Shown one piece after another: positions 22,448-30,442 of a DNA stretch of 64,000 nucleotides. A program made the position numbers and the translations under genes. A model generated the notes under the pieces. It was not told where the DNA came from. It made no database searches and saw only the letters and a program-made list of their open reading frames with translations. Source of the stretch: Flavobacteriales bacterium (GTDB lineage: Bacteria; Bacteroidota; Bacteroidia; Flavobacteriales_C; GCA-002722245); contig CANFBW010000009.1 in NCBI GenBank assembly GCA_947444925.1, positions 1-64,000 on the forward strand, written 5' to 3'. Every line of letters starts with the position of its first letter. Position 1 is the stretch's first letter.

Positions 22448-23290
22448 CTACTCAATAATTACCTTAGAAGTAAAACTTGCCTCTTTTGTGTTTACTCGAA
22501 CAAAGTAAATACCTGCTCCTTGTTTTATTTCCAATGAAAGGGATGTCGTCCCTTTATTTACAGAAATATTTTGTAGTTGTTTACCTGTATAATCAATAAC
22601 TACAATGTTTTCAACACCTCCTTTCGCTGCACTTAAGTCTAAAAAAACTTTGCCATCAGCAGATGGATTAGGGTAAATTTTAAAAGGATTGTTATTTATC
22701 TCTTGCACTCCTACAGATTCTTTGGAATAAACCGTTAGCTTTTTAGTGTATGCATAATCTCCTGTGCTTTGTCCGTTGGCATTTGCGGCAACAAAAGCAG
22801 CGTATAAAGTAACCGTGTCATTTAAGTCACTTGCATCAGGAGCAGTCCAATCAAAAGTCCATGAATTTGAACCATTGGTAGCAGAAATACTGGCAGGCTT
22901 ATGAGTAGCATACTTATTCGCTCCTTCCCATGATCCAACTACCTGAGCGCGATTTTGACTTCCTGCTGCAAGTGTGCCTACAGAAGTTGAATCATGCTGT
23001 CCCCAAGCCATTACCTGAAATCCAAAAGCAGTAATATTCGCTTGTGAAATAGTAGCAGTAATTTGATAAGTCTGACCGGATTCAAATCCGCCTGATGGAA
23101 TATTTGAAGTTAATTCAATCGTAGCGGGACCTTGATCAATACCATGTGAAGCATGACAACCGGACATTCCGCAAGTCATTTGTTTAGGTGCTCCCGTATG
23201 ATCGGGATAACCGTAATCAGTAAAAGATAAAAAAGGAAGACTCAGTCCAATAATTAAGAGCGAGCCAACAACTATATTTTTTGTTTTCAT
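22448..23290 (-). CDS. T9SS-sorted secreted protein with choice-of-anchor V/Reeler-like domain and CX4CH motif
   Basis: YPDHTGAPKQMTCGMSGCHASHG; C-terminal FKIYPNPSADGKVFLDLS...GIYFVRVNTKEASFTSKVIIE sorting tail. Confidence 0.75.
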   Translation of the reverse strand: MKTKNIVVGSLLIIGLSLPFLSFTDYGYPDHTGAPKQMTCGMSGCHASHGIDQGPATIELTSNIPSGGFESGQTYQITATISQANITAFGFQVMAWGQHDSTSVGTLAAGSQNRAQVVGSWEGANKYATHKPASISATNGSNSWTFDWTAPDASDLNDTVTLYAAFVAANANGQSTGDYAYTKKLTVYSKESVGVQEINNNPFKIYPNPSADGKVFLDLSAAKGGVENIVVIDYTGKQLQNISVNKGTTSLSLEIKQGAGIYFVRVNTKEASFTSKVIIE

Positions 23291-23310: not shown

Positions 23311-24135
23311 TTAATCAATAATTTCAACTTTCTGAAGTTCTATAGCCTGAAGGACGTTACTTCTTATCATATCGGCATAATAACCGCCGTGTACATTGGC
23401 TTGAGGGAAATTATAGCCGCCAAAAGAATAATTTGAACCATCCTGATTTTTCAGCACTTTGTTAAAATCAAGCGTAAAATAAACGCGTGTTGTTTTACCT
23501 TCTTTAATTTCAAACTTAGGCGTAGTGACAAGCATATTTCCGAAGAAACATGACATCATTCTTAAATCAGTACCTATTCCGAAATGAAAATAATCTCCGG
23601 CAACACCTGCGCCTTTTCCTTCAGCTAATAGAAATACATAGCCTGAATTCCAGTTCCAGTACATTCCCGGTACTGAAAGGTCAAGAGGATAAGGATTAGT
23701 TGTTGCGTCTTTATGGTTGACTTCACTCGGCACGCCAATATCGTAACGAATATCTGAATATTGACCAACGGCAGCATTCATAGTTAATTTATAACTCTGC
23801 ATTCCATAACCGGCATCAAAATTTGCGCTGTCATAATTCACCAATTTGGTTCTGTATCCATCCACACCTACTTCTGAACCATCGGCTTTAGAAAGTCCAA
23901 TATCACTGATGTAATACTTTAAAGTCGTTAATTCATATACTTCTCCTGCCGGATTGGTATAGGCAGAATCATAATAGAGTCCTTTATCTCCTACCATCGG
24001 AGTAAATATTAGCTCTAATTTTCCCTTTGGAGTTGGTATTTCCACAATGGGTTTATTTTCTTCCGGCTTTTCTTTTTTACAGGAAGAAACAAAAGCAGCA
24101 ACAAGCACTGCGCATAGTATTGCAATTTTTTTCAT
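23311..24135 (-). CDS. MbnP-family lipoprotein (copy 1)
   Basis: Lipobox FVSSC; GKLELIFTPMVGDKGLYYDS..., LTTLKYYISDIGL, VPGMYWNWNSGYVFLLAEG. Confidence 0.8.
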   Translation of the reverse strand: MKKIAILCAVLVAAFVSSCKKEKPEENKPIVEIPTPKGKLELIFTPMVGDKGLYYDSAYTNPAGEVYELTTLKYYISDIGLSKADGSEVGVDGYRTKLVNYDSANFDAGYGMQSYKLTMNAAVGQYSDIRYDIGVPSEVNHKDATTNPYPLDLSVPGMYWNWNSGYVFLLAEGKGAGVAGDYFHFGIGTDLRMMSCFFGNMLVTTPKFEIKEGKTTRVYFTLDFNKVLKNQDGSNYSFGGYNFPQANVHGGYYADMIRSNVLQAIELQKVEIID

Positions 24136-24211: not shown

Positions 24212-24583
24212 TTAAGCCGAAATAGGCGGGCGGAGTATGGCAGCAATATATAATCTGCCGTTTTGAGATAAATAAGGAGAAAAGTTTTGCGTTTCTTTAG
24301 TCGGTGGCGGTATAGTTATCATTTGAATACTATTCATTACCGCGACTTCTTCTATTTTTTCTTTTGATCCCGAACGAGAAGAACCATCACTATTTTCTTC
24401 TTTTTCAATTTGCTTTTTCAAATGACACTGCCCTTTACAACAATTATTCTTTTGCGTTCTTTTTTCACACAAATTTTTCGCAATGTAATTTCTATTCACC
24501 TGAAAATTTTGATAAATGATTGTTGTTTTGAAGCATTGTAAAAGCATCAACAACAGAAGAAATATAGATAGTAATTTTTTCAT
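24212..24583 (-). CDS. Small 'CxGxCHLKKQ' protein (copy 1)
   Basis: IYQNFQVNRNYIAKNLCEKRTQKNNCCKGQCHLKKQIEKEE; stop overlaps the 24580-25638 gene boundary by 4 nt. Confidence 0.65.
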   Translation of the reverse strand: MKKLLSIFLLLLMLLQCFKTTIIYQNFQVNRNYIAKNLCEKRTQKNNCCKGQCHLKKQIEKEENSDGSSRSGSKEKIEEVAVMNSIQMITIPPPTKETQNFSPYLSQNGRLYIAAILRPPISA

Positions 24584-25638
24584 TTATATAACGGATCACT
24601 AAAGCGAGTGTCGTGAATAAAAGTGTTGTCGGTTAAGGTGTTTAGAAAACTTATGATACTTTGAATTTCATCGACAGAAAGAGCTTGTCCATTCAAAATA
24701 ACAGGATCAACATTACTCATGTAATATGGTTTGTTTATATGGTAATCAATGGCTTTATCAAGAGTTTTAAATCGACCATCGTGCATATAAGGAGATGAAA
24801 CCTCTACGTTTCTTAACGAAGGCATCTTATAGCTGTGCATATCCTGTACAGATTCTGAAATACGCATTCTACCGCTATCTTGTAGAGATACATTGGGTTC
24901 TAAGCCAATATTTCGGTAAGAGAAATTGCTAAATAAGGGTGGCGCATGACAAGAAGCGCATCGCTGATTAAATATAGATTTTCCAATTTCTTCGTCTGCC
25001 GTAAAAGCATAACCTGCTTCTCCACGCTGAATTCTGTCATACTTTGAATTTGAAGAAACAAGCGCCCCTAAAAATTGAGCAAAGGATTTAAGAACTCTTT
25101 GTGTTGTTACGGCTTCATCACCAAAGGTTTCTTTAAACATTTTTCTATAAGATGCATCTGCCGAAAGGAAGGCAATAACATCATTCATATTTCCATCCAT
25201 TTCCAAAGAATCATTAATAGGAGCTAAAGGCTGAACTGTAATATGGTTGATTCCTCCGTCCCACATGAAAGAAGTTTGCCAATTCAAATTAAAAAGAGCG
25301 GGGGCATTTCTTTTTCCAAACTGTCTGTCAATACCATGACTTCGGGCATGAGCAGCATTGGCAAATGCGGCAAATTGCTGATGGCAACTGCCGCATGAAA
25401 TAGAACCATCCCTCGATAATTTCTTCTCATAAAATAATCTTCTTCCTAAATTAAATCCTGCATCTGTTAAAGTGTTTTCTTCAAAATTGTACACTGGCTG
25501 AGGCCATCCCTGAGGCACAGTGAAGGTTACTCCTGTTACTTGAGGAGATGGGATTTGAGGATCTTTTGAGCATTGAAAAAAGAATAATGTCAAAGACAAA
25601 ACCATCATCAAAGCAGCTATTTTATTTTTTGCTTTCAT
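24580..25638 (-). CDS. Diheme cytochrome c peroxidase / MbnH-like enzyme
   Basis: Two CXXCH sites (CGSCH, CASCH), lipobox FFQC, RNAPALFNLNWQTSFMWDGG, MPSLRNVEVSSPYMHDGRFKTLDKAIDYH. Confidence 0.9.
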   Translation of the reverse strand: MKAKNKIAALMMVLSLTLFFFQCSKDPQIPSPQVTGVTFTVPQGWPQPVYNFEENTLTDAGFNLGRRLFYEKKLSRDGSISCGSCHQQFAAFANAAHARSHGIDRQFGKRNAPALFNLNWQTSFMWDGGINHITVQPLAPINDSLEMDGNMNDVIAFLSADASYRKMFKETFGDEAVTTQRVLKSFAQFLGALVSSNSKYDRIQRGEAGYAFTADEEIGKSIFNQRCASCHAPPLFSNFSYRNIGLEPNVSLQDSGRMRISESVQDMHSYKMPSLRNVEVSSPYMHDGRFKTLDKAIDYHINKPYYMSNVDPVILNGQALSVDEIQSIISFLNTLTDNTFIHDTRFSDPLYK

Positions 25639-25640
25639 TG

Positions 25641-26468
25641 TTAATTCGTTATTATAGAAAACATATCAGCAAAATTATCAGCCATTTTTTTCGCATCGGC
25701 TCCCGGTGCATGAATTACATATAGTGAAGAAAAACTAATGTTTTGTGGACTGGTGAACCATTCCAACACATCTGCTTTAACTTTCAATTTTGGTGATTCA
25801 GTTTCTGATACAGTCATTGCAGTTGGAAAATCAAGACCAACTGTTTTTAATACTGAGTTACTACCTGAAAATCCACCCACGTGATATAAAACAGTTTTGT
25901 CAACTTCAGGAGATTTACTTGAATAGCCCTCAAACTTCGCCATGATATAACCTGTGTTCCAGTTCCAAAACATCCCTTTAGCAGGATCTAAGTCTCCTCC
26001 CTGAATTCCTGTGACATTTTTTACGCTGTCCACACCAATCATAAAAGAAATGGAGATATACTTTTTAAAAGGCACATTTTTCAACGGAATTTTTAGTGTG
26101 TTGTCATTGAATGCCGAAAGCAGATGATAGCTTTCACTTTCCGTATATACTGAATTGTCATCCGCAATCAGTTTAACATTACTGATGTAATAATTGAAAG
26201 TGGAAATAGTAAAAGTATCTCCATTTGCGTTTTTATACTCGGAAGTTTCCAATACCAAAGCACTGTCGCCCACCGTGTTTTTAAACAATAAATTGAAAGC
26301 GCCTGTTGCAACAGGAGGTATATTAGTATCCTCTTTCGGCTTATCCTTTTTACAAGAATTGAAGGCAGTCGCCACTAAAAAAATACCAAACCACTTTAAA
26401 AGTGATTTATGAATCAATTGTTTTTTGCTCCTTGCTGAATCCATTTTAAAACTAATTTGGTGGTACAA
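25641..26468 (-). CDS. MbnP-family lipoprotein (copy 2)
   Basis: Lipobox AFNSC; GAFNLLFKNTVGDSALVLETSEY, ISTFNYYISNVKL, AKGMFWNWNTGYIMAKFEG. Confidence 0.8.
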   Translation of the reverse strand: MYHQISFKMDSARSKKQLIHKSLLKWFGIFLVATAFNSCKKDKPKEDTNIPPVATGAFNLLFKNTVGDSALVLETSEYKNANGDTFTISTFNYYISNVKLIADDNSVYTESESYHLLSAFNDNTLKIPLKNVPFKKYISISFMIGVDSVKNVTGIQGGDLDPAKGMFWNWNTGYIMAKFEGYSSKSPEVDKTVLYHVGGFSGSNSVLKTVGLDFPTAMTVSETESPKLKVKADVLEWFTSPQNISFSSLYVIHAPGADAKKMADNFADMFSIITN

Positions 26469-26812
26469 GTGTCTAACTTTCCTGATGTTGGCATCGGAGC
26501 TGTATTGGAAGTCATAGAGGCATAAACAATGCTTGACTTCGGATCTCCTAAATTGATATAGCCTCCACCTTTAAGACTGTTCAGCGATTTGGTGTTTTCT
26601 AAATTGAGTCCGCCGGGTGGATTGTTTCCTGAGTGGCAACCTAAATTAGAACAGCTTTTGTTAAAAATGGGTTGTATGTTTTTACTGAACGATATAGTAT
26701 CCGGAGTAGAACAGACATCTGTTTTACTGTTATTATTATCGTCAATAACCGTTTTCGTACAAGAGAAAAAAATTATTGATGACACACTAAAAATCAATAT
26801 GTATTTTATCAT
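26414..26812 (-). CDS. Small lipoprotein with single CX4CH haem-like motif
   Basis: Lipobox IFFSC; ISFSKNIQPIFNKSCSNLGCHSGNNPPGGLNLEN...LVLKWIQQGAKNN resembles monohaem c-type domains. Confidence 0.75.
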   Translation of the reverse strand: MIKYILIFSVSSIIFFSCTKTVIDDNNNSKTDVCSTPDTISFSKNIQPIFNKSCSNLGCHSGNNPPGGLNLENTKSLNSLKGGGYINLGDPKSSIVYASMTSNTAPMPTSGKLDTCTTKLVLKWIQQGAKNN

Positions 26813-26821
26813 AAATTATTT

Positions 26822-27589
26822 TTATTCAAAATGAAACATTCCCGGCAGGTTCCCCGCAATTTTTGTCGCCAAAGCATTTCCGTTATCAGAAACGCTGTTT
26901 AACTGTAAATTCAGTGCATTCGTAATATCTACGCCGTCAAATATTTTTGAATAATCAATTATCATGTGCGCATATCCTGTGCTTCCTTCCATGATGCTAA
27001 AATTTTCATCAGGCATTTGCACTTCAACATAATGAGCGTTTGTTCCAACCTTATAAGAGAAGTCAGCCATTTTCATACTATGATTGTAAGAGGTGTCAAT
27101 TTTTCCCTGAATATTGGCGAAAATATATCCATCGGGTTGAGAGGTATTCCCAAACCACATTTCACTATGGTTTAAAATTGTAGAATCGCTTGGCGTTGTC
27201 GATGCTAAAGCGTTAGTAGTCGCATCCAATCCTACTTTAAAACGAACGGCTTTGTAATTCCCTACTGGTACGTTATTAAAAATGAAAGCCTCCGTCGCCA
27301 AATCTTTCAACATTTTTCCTTTCGGCACATCCAATAAAGAACCATCTAATTTTACCAATTGAATTCCTGAAATATACAATTGCGCAAAATCCAAAGACAT
27401 TGAATCGCCGTTGGAAGCCAAATAATTTTCGCCGTAGTCTTCCACTTCGCTATCTCCAACATTGGTGTGTAAATGAAAGGCGAACTTTCCGTATTTAATG
27501 GTTTCGGTGGTGTCGTTTTTTTTGTTGCAGGCACCTAATAATACTATTGCTGCCAAACTTAACATTAATCCTTTTTTTCTGATTTTCAT
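26822..27589 (-). CDS. MbnP-like lipoprotein (copy 3, divergent)
   Basis: Lipobox LLGAC; GKFAFHLHTNVGDSEVEDYGENYLASNGDSMSLDFAQLYISGIQLV; lacks the WNW motif, has EMWFGNTSQPDGYIFANIQG. Confidence 0.7.
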   Translation of the reverse strand: MKIRKKGLMLSLAAIVLLGACNKKNDTTETIKYGKFAFHLHTNVGDSEVEDYGENYLASNGDSMSLDFAQLYISGIQLVKLDGSLLDVPKGKMLKDLATEAFIFNNVPVGNYKAVRFKVGLDATTNALASTTPSDSTILNHSEMWFGNTSQPDGYIFANIQGKIDTSYNHSMKMADFSYKVGTNAHYVEVQMPDENFSIMEGSTGYAHMIIDYSKIFDGVDITNALNLQLNSVSDNGNALATKIAGNLPGMFHFE

Positions 27590-27599
27590 ATTTTTTGTT

Positions 27600-28664
27600 T
27601 TAAAAAGTTAATGCCCAATAAGCGTTAATACTATATTTTATAGGAGATTGTATTCCGTTTAGGTTTTGATATAGTGGCAAACCAAATTCTGCTGATATTT
27701 TTTGATTTTTTAAGCCCCCTCTTAAAGGTTGCCAAGTAGTGCCAATAAAAACAGAAGCTGTTTGCCCCCCATAATTAGCGGTATTTGCAGAAGGTTCGTT
27801 GTGTCGGTATAAAGAAGTATCAACTCCTTGAATCTTGCCGCTAATTGCATATTCAACACGTAAAGAGGAACTCAGAAAATTTAACCACCGATAGGCATAC
27901 CAAGCATTTCCTGTAAATTCATTGCCGCGACTGTATCCATATTTATTGTAGCCAAGATGAATATTGGCATTGCCTTGCACTCCAAAAGTGTATGTTTTTT
28001 TGTGGTACAAATAAGTTGCTCCCGGTAGAAAATCAAAAGTGCCTGATCCTAATTGCATCATGTATGACAGGTGTTTCCCTATATACTCGGTCATTCCGTT
28101 ACTTTCTCCCAATACGTCAATACTCCCCGTAGGAATAGAAAATCCAATATTCATCAACAATTTATGTCGAGTCTCATTAACCAAAGAGTAAATACCATAA
28201 AGCTTTACATCTCCAAGCCCCTGTGAATTCATTTGGTGAATATTAGAGCCTCCCATTCCATGATCATGGTGATCACTCATGCCAAACATGGTCATATTCA
28301 TTGTATTTTGATTGTAATTAACCATTGCCATTAAAGTGAGTCGTTTATTAATGCCATACATCAGCATTAACATATGCATATTCATTTGCATACTTTCAGG
28401 AGTCATCAAGTAAGTCTTGAAAACCTCGTCACTGGTAACGGAAGAGTTGCCTTGATAAATACCTTTCATCGCCATATTCATATAGCGATAAGAAAGCATC
28501 CATTCTCCTTTAGAGTGAACGTGTCCAAGCATCACTCCTGCCGGAAGAGCTACTTCGTTATTACAGCAAGACGATTCGCAAATCTGCGAGCTATCTTGTT
28601 GCGCCATAATTTCTGCTGAATGTATAAATACAAACAGAAAAAGGCATACAATTGAAAATCGCAT
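27600..28664 (-). CDS. Met/His-rich outer-membrane beta-barrel ('transporter'-type)
   Basis: Signal peptide; PAGVMLGHVHSKGEWMLSYRYMNMAMKG, MQMNMHMLMLMYG, MNMTMFGMSDHHDHGMGG. Confidence 0.75.
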   Translation of the reverse strand: MRFSIVCLFLFVFIHSAEIMAQQDSSQICESSCCNNEVALPAGVMLGHVHSKGEWMLSYRYMNMAMKGIYQGNSSVTSDEVFKTYLMTPESMQMNMHMLMLMYGINKRLTLMAMVNYNQNTMNMTMFGMSDHHDHGMGGSNIHQMNSQGLGDVKLYGIYSLVNETRHKLLMNIGFSIPTGSIDVLGESNGMTEYIGKHLSYMMQLGSGTFDFLPGATYLYHKKTYTFGVQGNANIHLGYNKYGYSRGNEFTGNAWYAYRWLNFLSSSLRVEYAISGKIQGVDTSLYRHNEPSANTANYGGQTASVFIGTTWQPLRGGLKNQKISAEFGLPLYQNLNGIQSPIKYSINAYWALTF

Positions 28665-28712
28665 TAAATACCTTTGAAATTAAACATTGATTTATGTGGC
28701 AAACGCCAGTAA

Positions 28713-29147
28713 TCAACATTTGGGCGGCTGAAAAACGCCTTGAGGTAAAGAGGCGGAAACTGAAAATGAATAAGCGGTTGAAATGCCAGTAGCTATGGTG
28801 ATTTGAGAATGGAAAGAATAAGCAGTTTCTGCAAAATATTGTAATTCAATCTTCTCCTTTGAATCCTTAGAAAAAGGTGTTTGTTCCCTTTTTTCTTCTT
28901 TCTTCAATTGCTTTTTTAAGTGGCATTTCCCGTCACAATGCATTTTTGGTTTTGCTTTGTTCTCGCAATATTTACGGGCTATCTCGGTTTTGTTGAGTTG
29001 GTAATTCACCACAATAAAAAGCTTGCTGAACATTTGCATTGAAATGGCAAACAATAATATTATGGAGAATACTCTTTGAATCACCAGACAAATATATAAA
29101 AATCCAAGTGGTATGAAAAAATAATATTTTAGGAAGATGAAAAACAT
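28713..29147 (-). CDS. Small 'CxGxCHLKKQ' protein (copy 2)
   Basis: VNYQLNKTEIARKYCENKAKPKMHCDGKCHLKKQLKKEE...SKEKIE aligns with 24212-24583; true start may be internal. Confidence 0.6.
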   Translation of the reverse strand: MFFIFLKYYFFIPLGFLYICLVIQRVFSIILLFAISMQMFSKLFIVVNYQLNKTEIARKYCENKAKPKMHCDGKCHLKKQLKKEEKREQTPFSKDSKEKIELQYFAETAYSFHSQITIATGISTAYSFSVSASLPQGVFQPPKC

Positions 29148-29235
29148 CCTCTTACTGCTGATTTCATTTTGTTTCTTGGGAAATATCTATGCTCAGTTCC
29201 AGTGGGCAGAATTAGGTGTTAGCGGACTTAACTGA
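29137..29235 (+). pseudogene. 3'-truncated secreted (probably heavy-metal-associated domain) gene, 32 codons left
   Basis: MKNILLLLISFCFLGNIYAQFQWAELGVSGLN*: complete signal peptide then WAELGVxGL, the N-terminus I recall for HMA-type proteins (..GVNGLTCSxC), then stop. Confidence 0.5.
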
Positions 29236-29530: not shown

Positions 29531-30300
29531 TTTGCCACGGGATGCTCAACGGTGTTGTAGTAAAAGGAAAACATGAATCGATGGTCAGCCAAGAACTTTT
29601 TATGAAGGTGAATGATATAATCTCCCAATCAACCCGTTCGGAGGTTCCCCACTTAAAAGAAAACGAAAACCTGCCCCTGAAGATATTTATTAAATGCGAC
29701 CATTGTGGTTCACCCTTCACCGGATATTTAATGAAGGCAAGGGGGATTTATTATTACAAATGCCGCCAAAAGGGATGTCCCAATAACAAAAGTGCAAAAC
29801 AGATGAACGAGTTATTCTTAAACCTCTTGGGAGAATATACGCTGAAAGAAAAGCTTATGAAGGTTTGTCGCTTTCATTTGGAACATCTTTTCTCCTCGGT
29901 AGCCAAAGAGCAGGTTTCAATAGAACAGGCTTTAAAAGCAAATCTTACCGAAGTGACCAAGAAACTGGAGAAGATAGAAGAAAAGCACTATGCTTTAGAC
30001 GAAATGAATAAAGAGACCTTCGATAAATTCTACTCGAAGTTTAAAAAGGAGCAGGAAGGCATTTTGATGGAATTGGCAAAATTACCAAAATCGAGTTTGA
30101 ACATTTCCGGTATTATAAAATTAGGTTTAGAAAAAGCCCTAAGACTCCCTGAATTATGGGCTTCCGGCATTATCAGACAAAAGGAAATGTTACAGAATTT
30201 GGTGTTTCCTGAAGGTATTCTATATAATCGCGAAACCGACGGAGTTCGAACATTAAAAGTGAGTGAGTTATTTGCGGGAATTGCCCAATTATGTAAGGGA
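29527..30300 (+). pseudogene. 5'-truncated large serine recombinase (zinc-ribbon and coiled-coil part only)
   Basis: GMLNGVVVKGKHESMVSQELFMKVNDII, CDHCGSPFTGYLMKARGIYYYKCRQKGCPNNKSA; no N-terminal catalytic Ser domain; ORF tail is antisense tRNA-Ser. Confidence 0.8.
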
Positions 30301-30311
30301 GGGGGAGGAAC

Positions 30312-30353
30312 AAAAAAAGGGACTTCCCCTTTTTTATCAGGTAAGTCCCTTTC
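30312..30353 (-). terminator. Terminator of the tRNA-Ser transcript
   Basis: AAAGGGACTT...AAGTCCCTTT followed by TTTT on minus strand. Confidence 0.75.
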
Positions 30354-30354
30354 A

Positions 30355-30442
<88 letters not shown>

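Follow-up and report, generated by a model that had tools for sequence, protein, structure and literature searches.

Each of two small ORFs in the window (the whole 64,000-nucleotide stretch that was analysed), like the other members of the Bacteroidota protein family to which they belong, probably encodes a copper-sensing leader peptide acting in cis on the module of genes that immediately follows it. By analogy with characterised copper leaders, we put the probability of this reading at about 0.72. The family is found directly upstream of copper-type genes and on the same strand, and its members combine an N-terminal hydrophobic segment, a Cys motif and a C-terminal Pro-Pro at conserved spacing. 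It is best read as a Bacteroidota variant of the copper leader ORFs of the CruR/CutF kind, which in Proteobacteria govern downstream genes by nascent-chain arrest, but one that lacks detectable DUF2946 homology; the general kind is already known, and this family is, as we read it, a new variant.

The two window ORFs are paralogues, since a search of their own genome with P0001 returns the P0002 locus with E = 5.8e-14. A preliminary description had reported a motif common to both, and both ORFs are indeed present on the minus strand at the positions given in Table 1 and carry the motif N-x-Q-x-N...I-A...C-E...C-x-G-(Q/K)-C-H-L-K-K-Q...S-K-E-K-I-E as it was written. The start of P0002 is more likely the GTG at 29084, which gives 123 aa, than the ATG at 29147, because homologues begin there. 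On one strand the window has, in order, leader 1, an outer-membrane protein, MbnP, a PSCyt1-like protein, MbnP, MbnH, leader 2, MbnP and a choice-of-anchor V/T9SS protein. Leader 2 and the MbnH gene overlap (ATGA), so that leader 2 begins inside the end of that gene and is not transcriptionally first in the run. The outer-membrane protein gave no Pfam or NCBIfam match. Recent tandem duplication was considered as the source of the two window copies and rejected, as they are far apart on the tree.

Table 1. Features of the leader-headed gene run in the window (positions are those of the whole stretch).
Feature	Position	Strand	Remarks
Putative leader ORF 1 (P0002, 144 aa as called)	28713..29147	-	heads module OMP-MbnP-PSCyt1-MbnP-MbnH
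First conserved Cys, leader 1 (C61)	28965-28967	-	
C-x-G-x-C motif, leader 1 (C71-C75)	28923..28937	-	
C-terminal Pro-Pro, leader 1 (P141-P142, FQPP)	28722..28727	-	proposed arrest site
Possible RNA hairpin, leader 1	28682..28721	-	11 bp, 28711-28721 with 28682-28692
Putative outer-membrane protein (OMP)	27600..28664	-	CESSCC and His/Met-rich stretches; directly downstream of leader 1
MbnP-family lipoprotein	26822..27589	-	PF20243 E=6.8e-22
Small PSCyt1-like lipoprotein	26414..26812	-	PF07635 E=0.00035, just under its cut-off
MbnP-family protein	25641..26468	-	PF20243 E=9.7e-53
MbnH/MauG-like di-haem enzyme	24580..25638	-	PF03150 E=3.3e-50; TIGR04039 E=3.5e-57, below its curated cut-off
Putative leader ORF 2 (P0001, 123 aa)	24212..24583	-	downstream neighbour is the MbnP gene 23311-24135
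First conserved Cys, leader 2 (C39)	24467-24469	-	
C-x-G-x-C motif, leader 2 (C49-C53)	24425..24439	-	
C-terminal Pro-Pro, leader 2 (P119-P120, LRPP)	24224..24229	-	proposed arrest site
MbnP-family protein	23311..24135	-	PF20243 E=5.5e-30; directly downstream of leader 2
Choice-of-anchor V / Reeler-type protein, T9SS sorting tail	22448..23290	-	NF041895 E=1.7e-25, PF18962; closes module 2

The same genome holds two further family copies on contig C45, within a second MbnP-containing cluster, where one precedes an outer-membrane protein and MbnP and the other a T9SS protein. This cluster (L006, 6248-9382), with its two leader copies, MbnP, PSCyt1 and Cys-rich outer-membrane protein, adjoins arsenic-type genes (an ArsR-like regulator and an aquaporin-like protein, named by sequence appearance). 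Positions 29137-29235 of the window hold, on the plus strand, the remnant of a divergent HMA-type (TCSAC) gene that is cut just before its metal motif; the remnant is identical in the related genome of L008, the gene is intact at L006 (9357-9860) and in L015, and a recombinase C-terminal ORF (29542-30423) adjoins the remnant.

At larger scale, profile A1 detected family members in 158 of the 396 Bacteroidota genomes sampled, spread over 71 of 172 genera and amounting to about 40% of the sampled species, and an N-terminal-only profile found the family in 161 of the 295 genomes of the window's class. It is matched by no Pfam or NCBIfam family and by no solved structure, and a plasmid collection yielded only three distant matches, all annotated as hypothetical. 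The conservation of Cys residues anticipated from the two window copies extends to the whole family: an alignment of 93 members is free of variation at three Cys, at the Gly of CxGxC and at the C-terminal Pro-Pro, and nowhere else; the exact C-x9-C-x-G-x-C pattern occurs in 90 members and an N-terminal hydrophobic segment in 91. The Pro-Pro, which the earlier reading had overlooked, is present in 93 of 93, lies 1-8 (mostly 2-4) residues before the stop and is preceded by F-H, F-R, F-Q and similar pairs (F-[H/R/Q/x]-P-P). The first Pro lies 67.1±1.9 residues after the third Cys (93 members), and this across a poorly conserved linker. In a re-run with the N-terminal-only profile, aimed at making the C-terminal result less circular, the Pro-Pro was found in 51 of 51 members at a distance of 66.4±1.9 residues, some of these loci coming from genomes already sampled; in the control, 4 of 338 other ORFs had Pro-Pro in their last 12 residues. 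The whole pattern was fitted by none of 783 control ORFs.

The position of these genes is also strict. The gene that follows is on the same strand for 91 of 93 members, compared with 70% for other genes, and it encodes a TonB receptor (26), MbnP (25), a Cys-rich putative outer-membrane protein (15), a YtkA-like protein (11) or a YHS lipoprotein (5), the remaining next genes being MbnH, SCO, a SusC-type receptor, a T9SS protein or, in two cases, a second leader that precedes a TonB receptor. About 90% of members have a copper-type next gene; in 20 regions of 20 kb drawn at random from these genomes, 1 of 316 genes precedes any such gene type. Positions taken independently from Pfam matches place 50 MbnP genes at most 6 kb from a member, all of them downstream on the same strand, where chance would give 0.4. 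These neighbourhood counts support at scale what had been suspected from the window, namely a family of small proteins dedicated to copper operons, perhaps with a regulatory role. Among the 74 loci for which neighbours were drawn, those with two copies have each copy starting its own module, for example leader-YHS-SCO-SOD-leader-MbnP-MbnH and leader-YtkA-TonB-leader-MbnP-MbnH. The window copies, first described as bracketing a metal locus, rather each head a gene module in the same way. Searches around the leaders for intrinsic terminators and for sigma-70 or Bacteroidota promoter patterns gave counts near chance level.

Several loci deserve separate mention. Double leaders were seen at L063 (7956-8876) and L064 (7975-8976), where the pair precedes one TonB receptor gene, and on contig C23 of genome G704 two family members stand in direct succession. 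Members at L080 (7993-11471) and L016 (8055-11727) lie near haem-copper oxidase-like and NorB-type reductase-like genes, which suggests a link to respiratory copper supply. The recurrent putative outer-membrane protein, seen at 27600-28664 of the window and in a cluster of 31 loci, has an N-terminal CxxCxC or CESSCC motif, and its representative from L054 matches PF13557; it may be an outer-membrane channel for copper.

On a tree built from few columns and with many weak forks, 27 changes are needed in what kind of module follows the leader, against 46.9 with shuffled labels, and it appears that the gene has repeatedly been combined with different modules while keeping its place. Within one genus, pN/pS is 0.19 for the Cys part, 0.44 for the linker and 0.11 for FxPP, and the length from the Cys site to the Pro-Pro is identical in 32 of 37 copies. 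These values, together with the near-fixed length, indicate a peptide under purifying selection in which the length of the linker is kept more strictly than its sequence. An AlphaFold2 model has an N-terminal helix, a Cys turn and a helix at 74-89, followed by about 55 last residues of low confidence with no predicted structure; it gave no fold match, much of the C-terminal half being of low confidence.

The anatomy shared with CruR and CutF, taken together with the periplasmic geometry, leads us to propose a copper-sensing, ribosome-pausing cis leader. The N-terminal hydrophobic segment would target the nascent chain to the Sec translocon, and with the C-terminal Pro-Pro at the peptidyl-transferase centre the C-x9-C-x-G-x-C site would be some 67-81 residues back. 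About 30 residues fill the ribosomal tunnel and about 17 cross the membrane (PMC9973294), so the site would lie on the periplasmic side. The ribosome would then pause at the Pro-Pro, with Cu(I) on the three Cys altering the length of the pause; halted just before the stop codon, it could open an RNA structure between stop and next start or block premature transcription termination, and pausing might in this way determine how strongly the TonB receptor, MbnP/MbnH and related genes are expressed. The observations behind this proposal are the family itself, its invariant residues, fixed spacing, upstream position, copper-type neighbours, purifying selection and RNA pairing potential. From them we infer copper binding, export, arrest and polarity of the leaders; it is only the neighbour genes that point to copper as the metal. 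Several features speak against the leader reading: the motif is F-[H/R/Q/x]-P-P and not the proven RAPP/RGPP, the spacing is 67 versus 45 residues in CruR and CutF, leader 2 starts within the MbnH gene and has no convincing hairpin, and the broader RNA tests described below were null or weak. The proline motif of CutF alone was not a strong stalling sequence in tests (PMC9973294).

Pairing between the leader stop and the next start was clearest in one genus, where 25 of 25 spacers, picked for a length of about 70-165 nt and with the 200-316 nt spacers before YtkA genes left out, can form a long stop-start helix, ahead of TonB and MbnP genes alike. The helix runs from about 7 nt before the leader stop codon to 3-10 nt short of the next ATG, and an arm pairs better with its cognate partner than with one exchanged from another locus (0 of 2000 permutations, a significance inflated by relatedness). 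Across the family, stop-start geometry is enriched relative to ordinary pairs of genes (z -1.33 versus -0.41, p=1e-7) in a test that took in only the last 50 nt ahead of the next start; this test was the third look at RNA and should be weighed so. Pairing of the stop region relative to the whole spacer is weak (p=0.015), and local folding in the first 110 nt after the leader does not differ from that in control spacers (p=0.14). The possible hairpin of leader 1 has its upstream-of-start arm 17 nt before the next start codon and is not significant alone (z -1.1); some sister loci have a similar geometry with a shorter helix. For leader 2 no convincing stop-start hairpin was found.

As to polarity, we favour that of CruR, by which low copper would give a long pause and turn the genes on, while copper would relieve the pause and turn them off. 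A sub-variant of the leader reading, not exclusive of it, takes the polarity of CutF: copper would prolong the pause, open the hairpin and turn the genes on, as in a detoxification operon. The stop-start helix is of the CutF kind and some modules contain SOD, YHS or SCO genes, but the majority of the downstream genes (TonB receptors, MbnP/MbnH) would, judged by analogy, serve acquisition and should then be on at low copper, and CruR, which stands ahead of a TonB receptor, is copper-repressed (PMC9426467). We therefore regard this sub-variant as possible but rather doubtful.

A stable protein that is anchored in the membrane and chaperones or buffers periplasmic Cu(I), working in trans with MbnP/MbnH and TonB partners, would agree with the invariant Cys triad, the hydrophobic N-terminus and the copper-type neighbours. 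However, it leaves unexplained why Pro-Pro is invariant at the extreme C-terminus, why the distance of 67 residues is nearly fixed over a weakly conserved linker and why the gene stands strictly upstream of partners that change, and the last 55 or so residues of such a protein would be those modelled at low confidence and without secondary structure. We consider it unlikely. The first suggestion of a metallochaperone or a regulatory membrane protein is thus supported in its regulatory and copper-linked part, while a stand-alone metallochaperone has become less likely with the C-terminal Pro-Pro, the spacing and the position. Less probable still is that the nascent chain senses thiol redox state or a soft metal other than copper, an idea to which the Cys as the only invariant metal ligands lend themselves, as do His-only CutF-like proteins that adjoin Ni/Co genes (PMC9973294); the neighbours, however, are copper-type (MbnP/MbnH, SCO, YHS and, in L080, a haem-copper oxidase-type gene), and neither disulfide nor Ni/Zn genes recur among the neighbour clusters. 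Finally, the CxGxCH stretch was once taken for a haem-attachment or haem-adjacent site (CX3CH) with a conserved His, and both window copies do have His after the third Cys. The alignment refutes this reading: that position holds His in just 23 of the 93 members and Y, E, Q, K, F or V in the others, and a conserved CXnCH as in c-type cytochromes is absent.

A 2025 survey did not find copper-related RAPP/RGPP leader ORFs in Bacteroidota (PMC12992588); our own literature search returned nothing on copper leaders in Flavobacterium and little on copper regulation in Bacteroidota. If true, the leader reading would close this gap with a motif of another kind and give a function to a small protein that about 40% of the sampled Bacteroidota species carry. 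It would also bring the MbnP/MbnH, TonB receptor and SCO modules together in one copper regulon, and the known arrest motifs would be joined by one that is not RAPP and stands at another distance from its sensor. It makes exact predictions, namely three Cys, two Pro, a distance of 67 residues and, for some clades, a stop-codon helix. To a bolder version we would give even odds, namely that the family is an undescribed class of copper-sensing arrest peptide, of DUF2946-independent origin, and a widespread copper-acquisition switch of Bacteroidota, in which F-[HRQ]-PP and a 67-residue tether would put the three-Cys copper site outside the membrane, the ribosome would read periplasmic copper directly, and a stop-start hairpin would take part in some clades.

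The closest known system is CruR of Bordetella pertussis (DUF2946, PF11162), the leader of crtA/bfrG (PMC9426467). Like the family, CruR is encoded by the first gene of a TonB receptor operon (its own having PepSY in addition) and has an N-terminal export signal, a Cys metal motif and a C-terminal Pro-Pro a few residues before the stop, at nearly constant spacing (PMC9426467). Its CXXC and RAPP are 45 residues apart, whereas in the family C-x9-C-x-G-x-C and F-[HRQ]-PP are 67 apart, and it acts via Rho termination, whereas the family has a stop-start hairpin in some spacers. Arrest by CruR was demonstrated in vitro (PMC12992588) and copper was proposed to relieve it (PMC9426467). By the tests made, the family does not appear to belong to DUF2946: PF11162 is not among the 25 of 33 matched families listed for 55 members at E<=5, DUF2946 has no match in the window's own genome, and hhalign of the family with Bacteroidota DUF2946-like proteins gave a probability of 0.2%. 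RAPP-type DUF2946-like proteins are rare in Bacteroidota, being found in 5 of 148 genomes, with two exceeding the Pfam cut-off; those at L112-L116 end in SRAPP or RGPP and are distinct from the family.

CutF of Rhodobacter capsulatus is likewise a small exported protein encoded directly upstream of copper genes and ending with Pro-Pro (PMC9973294). It has a CxxxC motif and a stem-loop in the spacer that shields the next start and is opened in CutF (PMC9973294); it differs from the family in its 45-residue spacing, its Cys pattern and the multicopper oxidase downstream, where the family has MbnP/MbnH or TonB receptors. The same work lists 5,334 CutF-like proteins, many of them from Bacteroidota, and, as far as its main text goes, does not describe these (PMC9973294); some members of our family may already be within that list. 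MbnP and MbnH, known from methanobactin operons, are among the commonest genes in the family-headed modules, as partners and not homologues. In a wider sense the proposed leader resembles SecM, MifM, VemP and the RAPP-type peptides, which have other arrest motifs and sense Sec or YidC activity rather than a metal, but in which, as proposed here, arrest of a nascent chain near its C-terminus controls a downstream ORF through a fixed geometry.
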